Source: Antedon mediterranea (lineage: Eukaryota; Echinodermata; Crinoidea; Comatulida; Antedonidae). From it: DNA of 64,000 nucleotides. Under the pieces are notes generated by a model that saw only the letters and a list, made by a program, of their open reading frames with translations, was not told where the DNA came from and searched no databases. Location of the stretch: positions 28,998,288 to 29,062,287 of the forward strand of contig NC_092676.1 in assembly GCF_964355755.1 (NCBI RefSeq). Direction: 5' to 3'. Positions 6,601-36,600 of this stretch are shown here, piece after piece. How positions within the stretch are numbered: the first letter of the stretch is position 1; each line of letters begins with the position of its first letter. The position numbers and the translations under genes are program-made.

Positions 6601-9600
6601 AATCAAAATTTAAAACCAGCCTAAATAAAAACCGTATACAGTACCATAATTAAACAAGATTAATGTAATGATGATCATAATGTGATTATTAATGTAATGA
6701 TCATAATGTGATTATTAATGTAATGATCATAATTTGATTATCAATGTATATTATTATATTAATATAATAAATTACAAACCTATGATATTAAAAAAAAAAA
6801 TCAATAAATTGCCACTTTACTACAAAAATCTAAATTATAAAATAATTTAGCAGAGCAAGGTGAGTGCACAATAGAAACGCTGTCAAAAGCTGATACAGTC
6901 TGTTTAATAATATTCACAAATTGTTAACAATAAAAATGAATGTTTATGTTGATGATTCATTAATGGCTTAATCTAACAATTCTACTGTGGTGACTAGACA
7001 ATGACTTAGATTTAAAAATATTTTATTGGCTTTAGAATTTACAAAGAAAATTGCTTGTTTCATTAATCACTAAAAAAGGGCTACCGACTCGGACACCATT
7101 ATTCTTTTATATACAACAAAATATTACTAACAATGGCTACAACATAAAAATCTTACTAAACAAAAAAAATGGAAACAAATCATGGAAAACATGGAAAGCG
7201 AGTGAAGGTGGATGGGGGAGGGTAGACGTAGAAATATAATGTCTATTTAGCTGGTTGGTTGGTTGTAATTAAGGGCTGTACTTCACTCAATGACATAAAT
7301 AGTTCATACACAAACTCTAAGTGTTACCGCCACCAAAGGCTTTTAAATATATTGTATTGTACAGCAATAAACACTAAAGTAAAAAAGTACGACGGACAAT
7401 GACATTTAATTCATTTAACACTTAGAATTATTAATATTCTATGACAGTAATAATAATAGCTGGGCTGTTGATGAATAACTATGTGCCGTACGTCACACTC
7501 GGATAATTATGCTTATCAAAAAATAGATTATGTTTTACAAACCGTTTTTGATATGGCTTTATACGTCAGTAAATTCAAAATGTCACATATACTGATGTTC
7601 AGGAATTTCAATAAATAATATGAACAAATTGCTAATTACTATGCATACTAAAATTAAAGATTTTGGTCATAAAAACAAAATTTGATTTGAACATTTATAC
7701 TGATGATGCTTTACTGATAACATAAATGCTTGGTTCATATTCAGGAATATCTATCTATTACTATAATCGATGAAAATGTTAATACAATCAGGAATACATT
7801 TTGCAAAAAGAGCCATATAGTACCATTAACAATAACAGTACCATCTGTGATTTAGCTACAAAATGTCAGATATTTCAATAAATTCATACAAATTTAAACA
7901 TTCAGCCTCAGCGGGTTTAATGTACAGTAGCATGAACTTGGTATTTTTTATACATGTCATTATTTGGGGATCAACTTATTTTGACAAGTTACAGTAGAAA
8001 ATCAGATTTATAGTTGGGGTAGGCTGGGATTAAATTAATCCACAAACAGGCAACATTTTACAACTTTAGAAATAAGATGTCCACGTGTAATTTTAATTAT
8101 TGCCAACGTAAAGGTCAAAGTTAGCGCATCTTGTAAAGAAATCAATATATTTGTACTTGTCAAATCCCATGATTGCATGATATTTGAATATCAACTATTT
8201 ACAATAAAACATACTACAGTATGTGGCATTATTGTAATCGTATCAAAACAAATAAAATATGGTTAAATTGTTCTCCTTTCATCAGAAAATTTGGGATGAT
8301 GGTCATAATTTGATTTTGATAGAGCCATAATTTTAATTAGTAATTTTTGACAGGCTTGTTAAAAAAATCAGCTTTGTGAATACTAATGCAACATAGGTTT
8401 TGCACAGCACAACATTGTCATGTTGTCTATTACATTATCATGTTACATTGTCTTGATTAGACTGCTACTGTATGATGACCATTGGGACTGCTAGGCTGTG
8501 TCAACCAGATCTACAGTACTACTGTGCAGCAACCTATATCAAAATCAACTACTCAATTAAACCCAATGTACTGTATCAAACAGTAGCTGACCTTAGAACT
8601 AAGTATCACAGTGATCATATATAACAAGTAAAGGAAGTTGTTAACAGTAAAAATGGACTGGGAGGAAGTAGGCGGCATTGTGCCTAACACTTAAGAAGAA
8701 CGTCGTTCATTTGTATAGACAACTATAACATATTCTCAAATACTACGGAAATAAATTCAGCTATACTTAAAAAATTAATTTTAAATTATGTTATCCACCT
8801 GTCCAAAGGAAATTTTGTAGATTTCTTCTTACTATCTCTCTTCTCTATTTACCATACTGTATTGTACATTGGCTCCATAAAGCTCTGTCTACACTATCAA
8901 ACTACTGTAGTTTGAAAAAAAAAGTGTGATGTGCCAAAATATAGTAGTGATATGACATTATCATGTCAATATAAGGGCACATCACATTCACATAAAGTTT
9001 TATAGTGTAGATAGAGCTTAAGCACAATCAATGAGCTCTGGATGACATCATCATGTCAATATAAGGGCACATCACATTCACATAAAGTGTTATAGTGTAG
9101 ATAGAGCTTAAGTACAATCAATGAGCTCTGGATGACATCATCATGTCAATATAAGGGCACATCACATTCACATAAAGTGTTATAGTGTAGATAGAGCTTA
9201 AGTACAATCAATGAGCTCTGGATGACATCATCATGTCAATATAAGGGCACATCACATTCACATCAAGTGTTATAGTGTAGATAGAGCTTAAGTACAATCA
9301 ATGAGCTCTGGATGACATCATCATGTCAATATAAGGGCACATCACATTCACATCAAGTGTTATAGTGTAGATAGAGCTTAAGTACAATCAATGAGCTCTG
9401 GATGACATCATCATGTCAATATAAGGGCACATCACATTCACATCAAGTGTTATAGTGTAGATAGAGCTTAAGTACAATCAATGAGCTCTGGATGACATCA
9501 TCATGTCAATATAAGGGCACATCACATTCACATAAAGTGTTATAGTGTAGATAGAGCTTAAGTACAATCAATGAGCTCTGGATGACATCATCATGTCAAT

Positions 9601-11754
9601 ATAAGGGCACATCACATTCACATCAAGTGTTATAGTGTAGATAGAGCTTAAGTACAATCAATGAGCTCTGATTGTACAGTAGGTTGATTTTTACGTACAC
9701 ATAGAAATCTTTCTTCTCTCTCATCTCAGTTTATCTTAGATAATCACACACTGTACAGTATCACTATCACTATGAATGTATGAGCTCTGGATAGGAACAT
9801 AAATTACAATAGTACATACTGTACTGTACACATAGACAGCTGGGACATTACAGTAATAGGATCATTTGATTTGCGGTAACTATGGACCTAGGCAGGATGG
9901 GATGTGCTACCTCATTTAATTTCTCTCAGTTTTGGAAACTTGTATTGTACTGAGGTATGCATACTAAAGGACTTGCAGTAGATCCTCTGTCATCACATAT
10001 TAAAATCTGCCAGCATGCAGTTGAAAAAAAATCAATCCAACACTACTTAAAGTATATGAAATGAAAACAAGTTTAATAATATGCCATGAATATCGCGCAA
10101 GATGAGTTGCATATCAATTGTCTTTTTCACTAATAGGTTAATTTGATCATTTAAAATGTTGGTGTTACAAAGGATTAAACTAATGATAAAATAAAGGTTT
10201 TAACTACACTCAGTAATATAAACATCTAATTGTTCATTCAAAGACCTTTTAATCTGTCTTTGATAAAAATTAGTAGTTGTGCTGGTCTGTAGATACCATG
10301 TCAGTTCTACTGTAAGTTCAAATCCTGATTTGGATGCAAAGATTTCCTCACAACATTTCAAAGGACTTTGAACATACAGTACTACTATAACATCACTGTA
10401 CATTTTCATCATGATTGCAAACTGACAAAAATAATTAATAATTCAACATTCTCAATCTGAAAGGTAATTTACCGTCACGTGGTAATTCACATTACATTAC
10501 GGAGCAAGTACATTTAAATTACGAACGAACATTTAGACTAAAAGACTATGTGTATTTATCTAGCCAGCTAACATTTGGCTGAGACCGGTTTACAAGACCT
10601 GCTTACTAATCCAAGATAAGTGGCAAAGCTCAAGCAAGGTCAGAGGTCATCTGCTGCTGGATTCATTTTCTCAATGCCATTGGGGAATTGATTTTGAAAT
10701 GAAATTTACCATCAAAAAAAGCTATAAAGTTGTCATAAAAATAACATAAAATACATTAAACTACCTCATAAATGTATCTTGCAAATTAAATCAAAAGCGA
10801 ACTTATTTTGAAATGACATTGACTTTCAGAATACGGCTACATTGAAAATCAGCATTTATATTTTAAATGTGCTTATTTCTATTTATAGTAAAAGGAAAAT
10901 TAAACACACTCGCATTTCAGAATAAAAAAAATGGGTAATAAATTAATGTCAATGTTTTATTTTATTTGATTTTTAAGGTAGAAATTGTCATCAAAACAGT
11001 GAATTAACTTTTTTTAAACCACATTTAAACATTGATACTAAATATTTTAAATATTCAATATGTAATTGTAATTAAAAAAAAGCATTTTAAATAATCATAG
11101 CAACAATTACCACCTTTTGTAGACAGATTTTCTATTGATATTAATTATGTATGCTATCACAATGTATACTGACCTTTAAACTTTGACCTGATATTTGCTA
11201 ATTCTTTGTTTATCCTTTTGATCTCTGCTTCCTTACTTTTGCCTACAAAATGAAAACAAAATATAAGATTGGATTTTTTTTTGTATTTGATACATTATAT
11301 GAAACAAAGGATATAGTATTAAAACAGAGTACAGATAAATTATTTAAATCCATCACCACCTTTACCTCTAGATTCTCGACCTGTATGTACAGTAGTTGCA
11401 CTGACACACCCATTAATATGCTACTACCTTAATCTAATGTTGTGTTGATTACGCTTCTTGAATCCTAAAACCCTTGAGTCAGTGGTTTGTTAAGCTCTGT
11501 CTACACTATCAAACTAGTTTGATAAAAAGTATGATGTTCCCCATATACAGCAGTAGTGATATACCCAAATATGGTAGTGATATGACATCATCATGTCCAT
11601 ATTTGGGCACAAAGGACAAGAATGCTATGGTTTGCCTGTACCTTTACAAACTTTAGCATTGGCCTCTCAAGAGATCCATTATTAACTTACAATTTCTAAT
11701 GTCCGATATAAAGACAGCCAAACCCCTCATTCCATCTCCCTTCACGGCAGGCAT
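528..11754 (-). CDS. AP2A: AP-2 complex subunit alpha, N-terminal 594 codons (partial, continues off left edge)
   Basis: Large alpha subunit of the AP-2 clathrin adaptor, which acts at the plasma membrane, binds PIP2 and selects endocytic cargo. Coding exons in transcript order: 11754-11691, 11242-11174, 5731-5589, 5032-4839, 4578-4449, 4059-3958, 3844-3674, 3530-3442, 3200-3129, 2742-2646, 2297-2160, 1960-1778, 1559-1462, 1084-955, 629-528. All have AG/GT borders and phases that agree, giving 1,782 nt. The product is the alpha-solenoid trunk, with family-typical stretches such as [73 protein letters not shown] and HSKFHLCS. The start matches the conserved MPAV..GDGMRGL N-terminus. Hinge and ear exons are outside the window. 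Introns hold MITEs and minisatellites. I know the family well from memory but ran no alignment. Confidence 0.95.
751..908 (-). mobile_element. tRNA-derived SINE, family A, fragment
   Basis: Shares gctagatgtgtac, gaagactcgttctaccacca and cttgccgatgttatggcta with the fuller copy at 27,672-27,978. The tRNA-like head is degraded and the 3' tail is missing. Confidence 0.75.
955..1084 (-). CDS. AP2A: AP2A exon 15
   Basis: Encodes [20 protein letters not shown], continuing [19 protein letters not shown]. Donor gtaagt. Confidence 0.95.
1107..1308. mobile_element. MITE family M1, copy 1, with internal tandem repeat
   Basis: Right end (ttgatagtgtagacagatct) is intact and the left end missing. Inside, an 18-bp unit (aacatggtagtgatatgccc) is repeated about seven times. 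It sits in the AP2A intron next to exon 15. Confidence 0.8.
1462..1559 (-). CDS. AP2A: AP2A exon 14
   Basis: Encodes [20 protein letters not shown] and [12 protein letters not shown]. Acceptor ttttag, donor gttagt. Confidence 0.95.
1778..1960 (-). CDS. AP2A: AP2A exon 13
   Basis: Encodes [20 protein letters not shown] and [15 protein letters not shown], nearly invariant in animal AP-2 alpha. Confidence 0.96.
2160..2297 (-). CDS. AP2A: AP2A exon 12
   Basis: Encodes [20 protein letters not shown], ending in [12 protein letters not shown]. Phase 0 at both ends. Confidence 0.93.
2441..2602. mobile_element. MITE family M1, copy 2 (full length)
   Basis: Terminal inverted repeats aagctctgtccacactatca and its complement bound a 162-bp element with inner gtgatgtgcccatatatgg-type motifs. 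AP2A intron. Confidence 0.85.
2646..2742 (-). CDS. AP2A: AP2A exon 11
   Basis: Encodes [20 protein letters not shown] and then [12 protein letters not shown]. Confidence 0.93.
3129..3200 (-). CDS. AP2A: AP2A exon 10
   Basis: Encodes [20 protein letters not shown] plus TNLR. Acceptor ttttcag, donor gtagtt. Confidence 0.93.
3442..3530 (-). CDS. AP2A: AP2A exon 9
   Basis: Encodes [20 protein letters not shown] followed by ISLIIHHDS. The [10 protein letters not shown] segment is typical of AP-2 alpha and contributes to its central basic phosphoinositide site. Confidence 0.94.
3674..3844 (-). CDS. AP2A: AP2A exon 8
   Basis: Encodes [20 protein letters not shown], then [20 protein letters not shown]. 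Phase 0 at both ends. Confidence 0.94.
3892..3933. mobile_element. MITE family M1, copy 3 (fragment)
   Basis: Only accatatttgggca and the right end agtgtagacagagctt remain, in an AP2A intron. Confidence 0.6.
3958..4059 (-). CDS. AP2A: AP2A exon 7
   Basis: Encodes [20 protein letters not shown] and then [11 protein letters not shown]. Phase 0 at both ends. Confidence 0.93.
4131..4278. mobile_element. MITE family M1, copy 4
   Basis: Inverted ends tctgtctacactatcaaact and agtttgatagtgtagata, with two to three inner aaatatggta units. AP2A intron. Confidence 0.85.
4449..4578 (-). CDS. AP2A: AP2A exon 6
   Basis: Encodes [19 protein letters not shown] and [16 protein letters not shown]. Donor is gtaagag. 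Confidence 0.94.
4636..4786. mobile_element. MITE family M1, copy 5
   Basis: Ends taaagctctgtctacact and tgatagtgtagacagcgctt. AP2A intron. Confidence 0.85.
4839..5032 (-). CDS. AP2A: AP2A exon 5
   Basis: Encodes [20 protein letters not shown] and later [13 protein letters not shown], matching the HEAT-like repeats of the trunk. Ends in phase 2. Confidence 0.94.
5434..5499. mobile_element. MITE family M1, copy 6 (minimal, ends only)
   Basis: 66 bp made almost only of the two inverted ends with a short spacer, so it can fold as a hairpin. It is an internally deleted copy. Confidence 0.85.
5589..5731 (-). CDS. AP2A: AP2A exon 4
   Basis: Encodes [20 protein letters not shown] and the following [11 protein letters not shown]. 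The lysine cluster is the family's N-terminal PIP2-binding surface (known for the family). Preceded by a 5.4-kb intron. Confidence 0.94.
6655..6755. repeat. Short tandem repeat, about 23-bp unit, 3-4 copies
   Basis: Unit near taatgatcataatgtgatta, followed by ttaatg. Low complexity, intronic. Confidence 0.75.
8879..9020. mobile_element. MITE family M1, copy 7 (seed of adjacent satellite)
   Basis: Left end aagctctgtctacactatca and right end ttatagtgtagatagagctt. The right half is repeated downstream as a satellite. Confidence 0.85.
9021..9671. repeat. 90-bp minisatellite derived from the M1 MITE, about 7 copies
   Basis: Each unit contains gatgacatcatcatgtcaat, ataagggcacatcacattca, tatagtgtagatagagctta and agtacaatcaatgagctctg. 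The first three blocks are the right half of the M1 element; the last is flanking DNA. Period is exactly 90 (ataagggcac at 9,061, 9,151, 9,241). Confidence 0.95.
11174..11242 (-). CDS. AP2A: AP2A exon 3
   Basis: Encodes [20 protein letters not shown], the conserved basic helix at the start of the trunk. Acceptor ttttgtag, donor gtcagt. Confidence 0.93.
11491..11611. mobile_element. MITE family M1, copy 8 (right end lost)
   Basis: Left end taagctctgtctacactatc and inner aaatatggtagtgatatgac are present. It lies 80 bp downstream of AP2A exon 2. Confidence 0.8.
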
Positions 11755-33600: not shown

Positions 33601-36600
33601 CTCAAGGAGAGCGAAGGCACTCGCCACTCCACCGGCTGCATGTACCTCATACGAATGCTCCAGGCCTGCTATGATGGCCTTAAGGACTGAAACCACTCCT
33701 TTATACACTGGTTTGGTCACTTTCTGTAACAACAAGTTTAAATACTTCACTAACCTACTAAGTTTCCAAACCCATTACAAAATAGCCATTGTATCTTACA
33801 ATAGGACACCGATTAATTTACAATTGGTAATCCTTGGCCACATGTGCCTAAAAACATATATTGAAACAAACAAATCGGAGTTATATCTAATAAAGTTGTA
33901 GAAACAGTACTAATTTAAGATTTTGAATGGTTTTTTAATTTTAAGGTTTGTGAATAATAGCATAGAATAAATGAACCATTAACTGGACACAGGACCAAAT
34001 CTATATTAGTTCTATTTCTTCTTTTGTTCAAGAAATATGAGTCTCAGAACAAACAATTGCCCATACAGGAGGCTGAGACTTGAAGTACTTACCATATCCT
34101 CAATGTAATCCTCTGTAACTGTGTTCTCCTGTGGATAAAGCTGACTGATGACTTGTGCTCGAAGGTTCTCGTTCTGCATCAACTTCTTAAGACGTGAGAA
34201 ATTAAACCAACCGACGTTGTTTCCTTCTAAAACACCTCGTGTTATATCCTTTAGGAACATTTGACTGTCACTGTAAAAAGACAAAATTAAGTTTTAAAGC
34301 TCTGTCTACACAATCAAATTTTGTTTGACAAAAAATGTGATGTGCACATATATAGATTAATTCATATCACTACTATATTTGGGCAAATCACTACCATATT
34401 TGGGCACATCACACTTTTTTGTCAAGAAAGATAGTTAGTTAGTTTGCATGTTTCCTGGTCTCTGCCACATATGACATCATCAGTACTCACAACTAGAGTC
34501 AGCCAACATTTATTTTCACTGAAACCAAAGCATCACTCGTTCTGCAATGTCCTGACTAGGATAATACCAGATATCACTTGGTACAATACTTTACCTGATA
34601 TCACTTGGTACAATACTTTACCTGATATCACTTGGTACAATACTTTACCAGATATCACTTGGTACAATACTTTACCTGATATCACTTGGTACAATACTTT
34701 ACCAGATATCACTTGGTACAATACTTTACCAGATATCACTTGGTACAATACTTTACCTGATATCACTTGGTACAATACTTTACCAGATATCACTTGGTAC
34801 AATACTTTACCAGATATCACTTGGTACAATACTTTACCAGATATCACTTGGTACAATAATTTACCAGATATCACTTGGTACAATACTTTATCAGATATCA
34901 CTTGGTACAATACTTTACCAGATATCACTTGGTACAATACTTTACCAGATATCACTTGGTACAATACTTTACCTGATATCACTTGGTACAATACTTTACC
35001 TGATATCACTTGGTACAATACTTTACCTGATATCACTTGGTACAATACTTTACCTGATATCACTTGGTACAATACTTTACCAGATATCACTTGGTACAAT
35101 ACTTTACCTGATATCACTTGGTACAATACTTTACCAGATATCACTTGGTACAATACTTTACCAGATATCACTTGGTACAATACTTTACCAGATATCACTT
35201 GGTACAATACTTTACCTGATATCACTTGGTACAATACTTTACCAGATATCACTTGGTACAATACTTTACCAGATATCACTTGGTACAATACTTTACCTGT
35301 TTGGTCTTTCATCATTATTAATTGATTTCTTCTTTTCTTTTTCGTTTGGTTTTTTGGTCGATGAATGCTTAATTAGTGGAGACCTTTCAACTAATGATTT
35401 CCGTGTATCTGATGAAGAACAAAATATACACAATTTAAGTTACACAGTGAAAGGTAGTTGTTTTTTATTCATTTTTTCATTCATTCATAATGGTATATTT
35501 ATTAAAATCATCTTCACAGAAAAACTGAATTGTGAAAATTTTTTACATTATTAAAAGGTACTTAAAATATTTAAAATGTTTTAAAAAGATAGCATAAAAA
35601 AGATAGCATGTTGGTCTTTGATGAATACCCTAAAACTCCTAGCATGCACTGTAAAAATGCAAGAAACATATTTTTAATTTGAACAAATTCATGTCATTTA
35701 AAAATATGAATTTGAGAATTCTTACTAGTAGGAAATGGTGATGTTTTTTTCTTGCGAGTTGGAATTCCCATGCCTGTGCTCATACTAGACACGCCACTAC
35801 TGCTACGATAAGGCCCCGGATCCGATGTCACGCTGGGGCTGTAGTTCACTTCTGCACCATTAGAAGATGCTGGTGATTTAGGTCGCTCATTCGAGTCCAT
35901 CGCAAAGTCCATGATCCCTTGCAACAGAGATGACTTCTTTGATTTCACAGGCGATGGCGGATTTGACGAATCGCTCGATTCAGATCGAAACAGCGCCGTC
36001 ATTTTTTCTAAAACCGATGGAGATGCCGGGTCATGGCGTCCAACGTCCACCGAATGAGATTTTCCTTGTTCCCGTAGCGTTATCTTTTTAACATTTCCGT
36101 CTGTCGGTACTTTTATCTGGTTATTATCTTCGTCAACTTGACCTGGTTGCTCTTTGATGACCTCAGACGATGTGGTAGACTTTATGGTGCTTGTTGTGTT
36201 GTTGTCAGAATCATATTTTAAGCTGTCAATCTCAGCATCGGTGTCATTGCCCGATGGTTCAATAATTTCAACTGGTTTTTTTGGCTGTTGAAATAAATAA
36301 AATATGCATGTCAATGTACAATAGAAGACAATACATCAGTTTAGCTGATACTCTATACTAAAATGTTATCCCATAATATAACTATTATAAATGTTATTGT
36401 CTATATTATTGTATAATAATGGTCAACATGCATTTAACTATACAAATAATAATATAAAAACCCTTGCTTGTTAGTACTAAAATGCAAAACAAGATTACAT
36501 CATATGTTATTTTTTAGGGCACACTCAGCCTTCTTGGTTTGATGGTTATTATGCAGATTTGCAATGGACATTTCGTATCCTTAGTTTCATAAGTACTAGA

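Follow-up and report, generated by a model that had tools for sequence, protein, structure and literature searches.

A 27-bp minisatellite in intron 11 of MADD begins exactly at the border of exon 11 and has the exon's own 5' splice site as its first unit. We think it likely that this array was born in place at the splice junction, that it is tolerated, with the exon-proximal donor being the one used, and that it belongs to a class of arrays that recurs in the genome.

The array at the border of MADD exon 11

The window is the whole 64-kb stretch of DNA that was analysed (G000:C7:28998288-29062287), within an assembly of 354 Mb in 18 contigs; as two of these measure no more than 20,646 and 13,000 bases, the chromosome number may differ from 18. 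MADD lies on its minus strand, where matches to the uDENN domain (E 1.7e-16), the DENN domain (7.1e-9) and the MADD death domain (3.3e-14) sit on other minus-strand exons of the window, not adjacent to exon 11. The reality of exon 11 (35297-35408, minus strand, 112 nt), which has no database match of its own, rests on its open frame, phase and splice signals: it carries an AG acceptor and a GT donor, and one open frame spans the joined exons 10, 11 and 12. Omission of exon 11 brings a stop in exon 12, and so exon 11 appears to be needed. The start of exon 12 (34100-34270, minus strand, first base 34270) gave nothing useful against solved structures (best E 0.83); we take this exon to be linked to vertebrate MADD. 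Between the two exons lies intron 11 (34271-35296, minus strand, 1026 nt), whose acceptor, TTTTTACAG, is outside the array.

The 5' splice site of exon 11, CAG/GTAAAG, occupies 35291-35299 on the minus strand and is probably the site used in the cell. It is also the start of unit 1. Unit identity begins at the donor C(-3), the preceding base differs from the unit, and unit 1 holds the donor together with three exon bases, in register. TRF reports a 27-bp unit in 27.1 copies with 97% matches at 34565-35297; TRF and unit-by-unit reading together give 27 full 27-bp units, head-to-tail, at 34571-35299 on the minus strand. Eleven of these are CAGGTAAAG (the CAG form) and 14 are CTGGTAAAG (the CTG form), and the remaining two, CTGATAAAG (from 34894) and CTGGTAAAT (from 34867, both on the minus strand), have damaged donors. 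The original prediction, that the array starts exactly at the exon 11 border with the true donor as its first unit and runs to about 27 units, roughly ten of them CAG and most others CTG, is thus confirmed by the reading of the units. Besides position 2 (A/T), only two private changes occur across the 27 units, and GGTAAAG is kept in 25 of them. The CAG and CTG units show no clustering pattern along the array (13 runs, P 0.41). After the last full unit come a partial unit of 6 nt, CTGGTA (34565-34570, minus strand), and then TTATCC.

The array seems to be a local product. A search of the 354-Mb assembly for the MADD unit at up to 3 mismatches returned at least 27 matches, 27 of 27 in the array, and none elsewhere (a reversed-pattern control gave 0), which makes it probable that the array originated where it now stands. 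Exact copies of CAGGTAAAG or CTGGTAAAG in the window number 25 on the minus strand, all of them units of the array, and 2 on the plus strand. One account of minisatellite birth is the seed model, in which short similar sequences start the process. The array ends in CAGGTA at its 5' side and in CTGGTA at its 3' side, and the A/T difference between these two is the only polymorphism that the units share. It is plausible that CAGGTA and CTGGTA, standing 27 bp apart in a putative single-copy ancestor, were a slippage seed, with the partial unit at 34565-34570 as its 3' member; the proposal is fitted to what the two array ends look like, and the event itself is inferred. Replication would have slipped between the donor CAGGTA and the near-identical CTGGTA 27 bp on, duplicating the stretch between them, and further slippage or unequal exchange would then have built up the 27 units.

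Several features of the surrounding sequence may be recorded here. Plus-strand open frames of 296 and 329 codons traverse the array (34435-35554), since a 27-bp period, being divisible by three, preserves the frame and the unit has no stops in those frames; they are likely to mislead gene prediction. Farther into intron 11, past the array, lies a short dispersed element that has inverted repeats (34298-34432). Ends of this kind, like AGCTCTGTCTACACTATCAAA, have 30 matches in the window against 0.01 expected (for example at 2445-2465, 2580-2600 and 34298-34318). Seven pairs of ends face each other, the distance between their starts being 43-135 bp, and some hold 21-bp CATATCACTACCATATTTGGG repeats. 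Eight of the 30 fall within an array at 8952-9670, which consists of 8 copies of a 90-bp unit that contains the end of the element.

Arrays at the donors of other genes

The sample for this comparison consisted of 27 listed arrays with tandem triples of donor words, taken with their upstream flanks; they are a part of the arrays listed, come mostly from contigs C1-C3 and are not random. In six of the 27 the array begins at, or extends across, an exon donor, and the exon has homology at E < 0.001. The four stronger cases are an SLC35A-type transporter exon (Pfam 1.4e-23, solved structures 6.2e-21; 10 units of 25 bp in an intron of 1041 nt), a DHX8 exon (E 9.8e-20; 22 units of 37 bp, intron 886 nt), a TDP2 exon (E 1.4e-10; 28 units of 31 bp, intron 1092 nt) and a SUGCT exon (E 8.7e-19; 23 units of 20 bp, intron 1151 nt). 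The two weaker cases are an eIF3L-like exon, where the match to Pfam Paf67 (7.3e-5), a family that we take to be eIF3L, is under the family's curated cut-off, and an MPP2-like PDZ exon (L033, G000:C2:40519950-40521150, minus strand, E 1.2e-4).

In all four stronger cases, splicing from the first donor to the following coding exon preserves the reading frame. SUGCT has four acceptors that do so, of which the last, CCACAG/GTCCAG, was taken; it presumably restores the conserved protein. When the sequence is read on past the first donor, a stop follows after 9, 9, 7 and 3 codons in SLC35A, DHX8, TDP2 and SUGCT, respectively. The units in DHX8, TDP2 and SUGCT carry exon codons as well as the donor, which shows that these arrays were copied from the exon-intron junction. 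The MPP2-like array is of another kind. Its 36-bp unit (GKVLQGGMIDKQ repeated) is open as far as it was read, and later donors would therefore add multiples of 12 residues.

Two more arrays were too weak to count as verified: one (L004) adjoins a Ku80-like match (E 0.75), and another (L031) has an open frame with no Pfam match and one poor match in solved structures (E 0.7). For 19 of the 27 no exon on the array donor was verified. In 13 of these 19 the frame was searched against Pfam (L011, L021, L022, L007, L010, L013, L015-L019, L030 and L034), the other 6 having frames of 12-29 codons; a family was found for a single one of the 13, L021 (EGF_CA, 2.1e-9). In L021, L011 and L022 an apparent exon donor precedes the array by 29, 53 and 64 nt, respectively, and is not part of it. 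Sorted by word, verified donors were found in 4 of 12 sampled AGGTRAG arrays listed on C1, in 0 of 7 AGGTAAA arrays and in 2 of 8 others. Because AGGTAAA is MADD's own donor type, the 0 of 7 speaks against a simple generalisation from MADD.

The wider result is that exon-border arrays, judged from sequence, recur in one animal genome, and in conserved genes. They provide natural pre-mRNAs in which 10-28 similar 5' splice sites are evenly spaced. As such, they open to direct study the spliceosome's choice of the exon-proximal donor and the question of whether minisatellites are seeded by splice motifs.

Donor choice, selection and chance

A pre-mRNA of this kind would offer 27 donor-like sites in a row. 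The first of them would win, going by general splicing knowledge, as it is made first, is flanked by the signals of the exon and has the CAG form, which is the better one. We read out MADD donors 2, 3, 10 and 27, and each gives ...ERPNR followed at once by a stop, as had been predicted for skipping of the first donor; all later donors keep that stop because all of them keep unit 1. Past the first donor the stop comes after 1 codon, and among the donors read out only the first keeps the MADD message readable. Messages from later donors would undergo nonsense-mediated decay. The array is probably tolerated rather than selected.

It is less straightforward why the first donor should be used exclusively. 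Of the 26 later units, ten match the true donor in all nine donor letters, and exclusive use of the first must thus depend on context. A different account holds that several of the first units are really used, as in IFI6, yielding a ladder of transcripts that in MADD would bear stops and lower the output of the gene according to copy number. The identity of those ten units favours this account, as does the statement, in the passage on IFI6, that two downstream repeat units are used as donors (PMC4526556). Nevertheless, since later MADD donors give an immediate stop, their use must be limited if MADD matters, and the amphioxus arrays known as mirages are reported, in the passages available from the source, without disturbance of regular splicing (PMC3087553). 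We regard such a ladder as unlikely.

One way of sparing the later donors would be to mask them in RNA structure. As a general mechanism this was rejected, as strong folding proved to come mostly from repetition as such. Compared with whole-sequence shuffles, the first 248 nt of the array have a folding z of -9.0. When arrays were instead built from shuffled units, 15 of 300 (CAG unit) and 27 of 300 (CTG unit) folded as well as MADD, and the same held for 225, 44, 121 and 134 of 300 in SLC35A, DHX8, TDP2 and SUGCT, respectively. Predicted accessibility places the first MADD donor 2nd, 2nd and 1st among the 27 when the window is 120, 200 and 400 nt, respectively, but 23rd when the window is 70 nt and the target 7 nt, and the masking of later donors thus depends on the settings.

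Could the array have been selected as a U1-binding decoy, a sponge or an enhancer of exon definition? The retention of GGTAAAG is in line with this idea, and U1 pairing can be modelled for both CAG units (-10.2 kcal/mol, with one bulge) and CTG units (-7.2), the consensus donor giving -14.0. The pairing is weaker, however, in the CTG form that 14 of the 27 MADD units carry. Moreover, selection for U1 binding should make the donor letters vary less than the others. With the first unit excluded, differences from the commonest letter in the nine donor positions and in the rest of the unit number 12/234 versus 0/468 in MADD (ten of the twelve being the A/T site), 12/198 versus 3/242 in SUGCT, 11/189 versus 42/588 in DHX8, 5/243 versus 29/594 in TDP2 and 0/81 versus 1/144 in SLC35A. 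The donor letters are thus clearly less variable than the rest in TDP2 only, which favours selection there; they are more variable in SUGCT and in MADD, where all variation among the 27 units falls in the donor letters, about equal to the rest in DHX8, and almost without variation, like the rest, in SLC35A. The five fully read arrays are also heterogeneous, with units of 20-37 bp in 10-28 copies. Selection for U1 binding or exon definition consequently seems very improbable.

These results divide the interpretation that was originally offered. Growth of the array from the splice site is well supported, as no other copy of the MADD unit was found in the assembly, the seed pair fits the array ends and other arrays hold exon codons together with the donor. 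Of the three consequences that had been put forward, a neutral array is the likeliest, and there is no positive evidence for a U1 sponge or decoy or for an aid to exon definition.

A further possibility is that nothing but chance is at work: in a genome rich in minisatellites a number of arrays will lie next to exons, and the agreement of this one with the donor would then have no causal meaning. The window holds 11 arrays of at least 5 copies, and with 30-50 donors assumed, the chance that the edge of one of them falls within 3 nt of a donor is 0.036-0.058, or some 4-6%. With many such arrays genome-wide, some would presumably be expected without any special mechanism. Genome-wide counts of tandem triples of donor words against reversed words give no clear excess for AGGTRAG (1370 versus 1300), AGGTAAA (508 versus 1448) or AGGTAAG (812 versus 896), which suits chance, but CAGGTAAGT (38 versus 13), TGGTAAGT (732 versus 386) and AAGGTAAG (364 versus 134) do exceed their reversed controls. 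As the matches behind all these counts overlap and long arrays dominate them, they show neither a hot spot nor a cold spot. Among the matches listed on contig C1 there are 7 distinct AGGTAAG arrays (3 on verified donors) versus 5 GAATGGA arrays, too few to claim a hot spot.

Arrays of the reversed word GAATGGA served as controls. The flanks of 6 listed arrays were taken, and edges were testable in 4, of which none (0 of 4) was on an exon at E < 0.001. Five control edge frames (34-56 codons) gave no Pfam family below E 0.12; against solved structures, searched with two of these five, one was empty and one had a single match, to a designed repeat protein (E 0.79). The control is small and not fully clean, the hint at one control array and the Ku80 hint at a donor array being equally weak. 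The control array at L043-L044 (G000:C1:40778300-40780700) has a unit of 42 bp, or 14 codons, and an open frame with the weak match to a designed repeat protein (E 0.79) runs into it; this array may also be coding or lie at an exon border.

The register of the arrays also argues against chance: the MADD unit contains the donor with its exon bases in place, and units elsewhere contain exon codons. We think that coincidence is a very improbable explanation, and prefer birth at the splice junction followed by tolerance.

That preferred reading can be extended. If donors were a recurrent birthplace of minisatellites, array length could set how frequently later, stop-bearing donors are taken, and copy number could act as a heritable dimmer of MADD, DHX8, TDP2 and others. 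An MPP-type array, being open on read-through, would instead lengthen a PDZ domain in steps of 12 residues. We offer this extension as a long shot.

Known systems

Turri et al. in 1995 reportedly described a minisatellite with multiple splice donor sites in human IFI6 (6-16). The MADD array is like that of IFI6 in having a donor within its unit and in beginning where an exon ends. In IFI6, use of two downstream repeat units gives isoforms, according to the passage available (PMC4526556), and this implies later donors that leave the message readable; in contrast, every later donor in MADD gives a stop.

The second parallel is with the mirages of amphioxus. Here an exon-intron boundary is repeated in tandem, minisatellite-like, beside the real junction, and many of the copies have AG/GT; the passages available from the source describe such repeats in Adh3 and in the globins BflGb6 and BflGb9 (PMC3087553), all from cephalochordates. 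In the genome analysed here a search for the GFP family found none, but it found none in any control genome either; cellulose synthase, which marks tunicates, was not found (controls positive in 3 of 14). In Adh3 the units are 10-72 bp and unstable in length, and RT-PCR, as given in the same passages, suggests that splicing is undisturbed (PMC3087553). The MADD units similarly include the exon-intron boundary, and at 27 bp fall within the Adh3 range. The differences are that MADD is another gene, that its 27 units are near-identical and that what is copied is the 5' splice site with 3 exon bases. Further, splicing and length polymorphism were measured for the mirages, whereas the MADD array is known from the sequence of one assembly.

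The third parallel is more distant. In polyubiquitin UBC each unit of a tandem array has an AG/GT dual-specific splice motif, as stated in the part of the paper available (PMC10809524), and the tandem units of MADD carry an AG/GT motif too. Unlike the UBC units, which are coding, 228 nt long and able to act as 3' sites, those of MADD are intronic, 27 nt long and without a pyrimidine tract. Tandem repeats at human exon-intron borders have also been linked to new introns (PMC2812944, in the portion available). It is nonetheless extremely improbable that intron 11 is new, by tandem AG/GT duplication, or that the CAG/GT units are dual-specific or recursive splice sites: the CAG units do show the AG/GT form and such models are published (PMC10809524, PMC3087553 and PMC4974935, each as far as the available passages go), but the real acceptor is not drawn from the unit, the intron ending at 34271 and the array at 34565, and pyrimidines make up 45% of the sequence upstream of the unit AG versus 70% at the acceptors of exons 11 and 12.

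In the literature searched, which comprised open-licence papers, we found neither the MADD case nor a genome-wide set of such arrays. The kind of array is already known from the amphioxus mirages and human IFI6; by this comparison, the MADD case is assigned to the mirage class and resembles IFI6.
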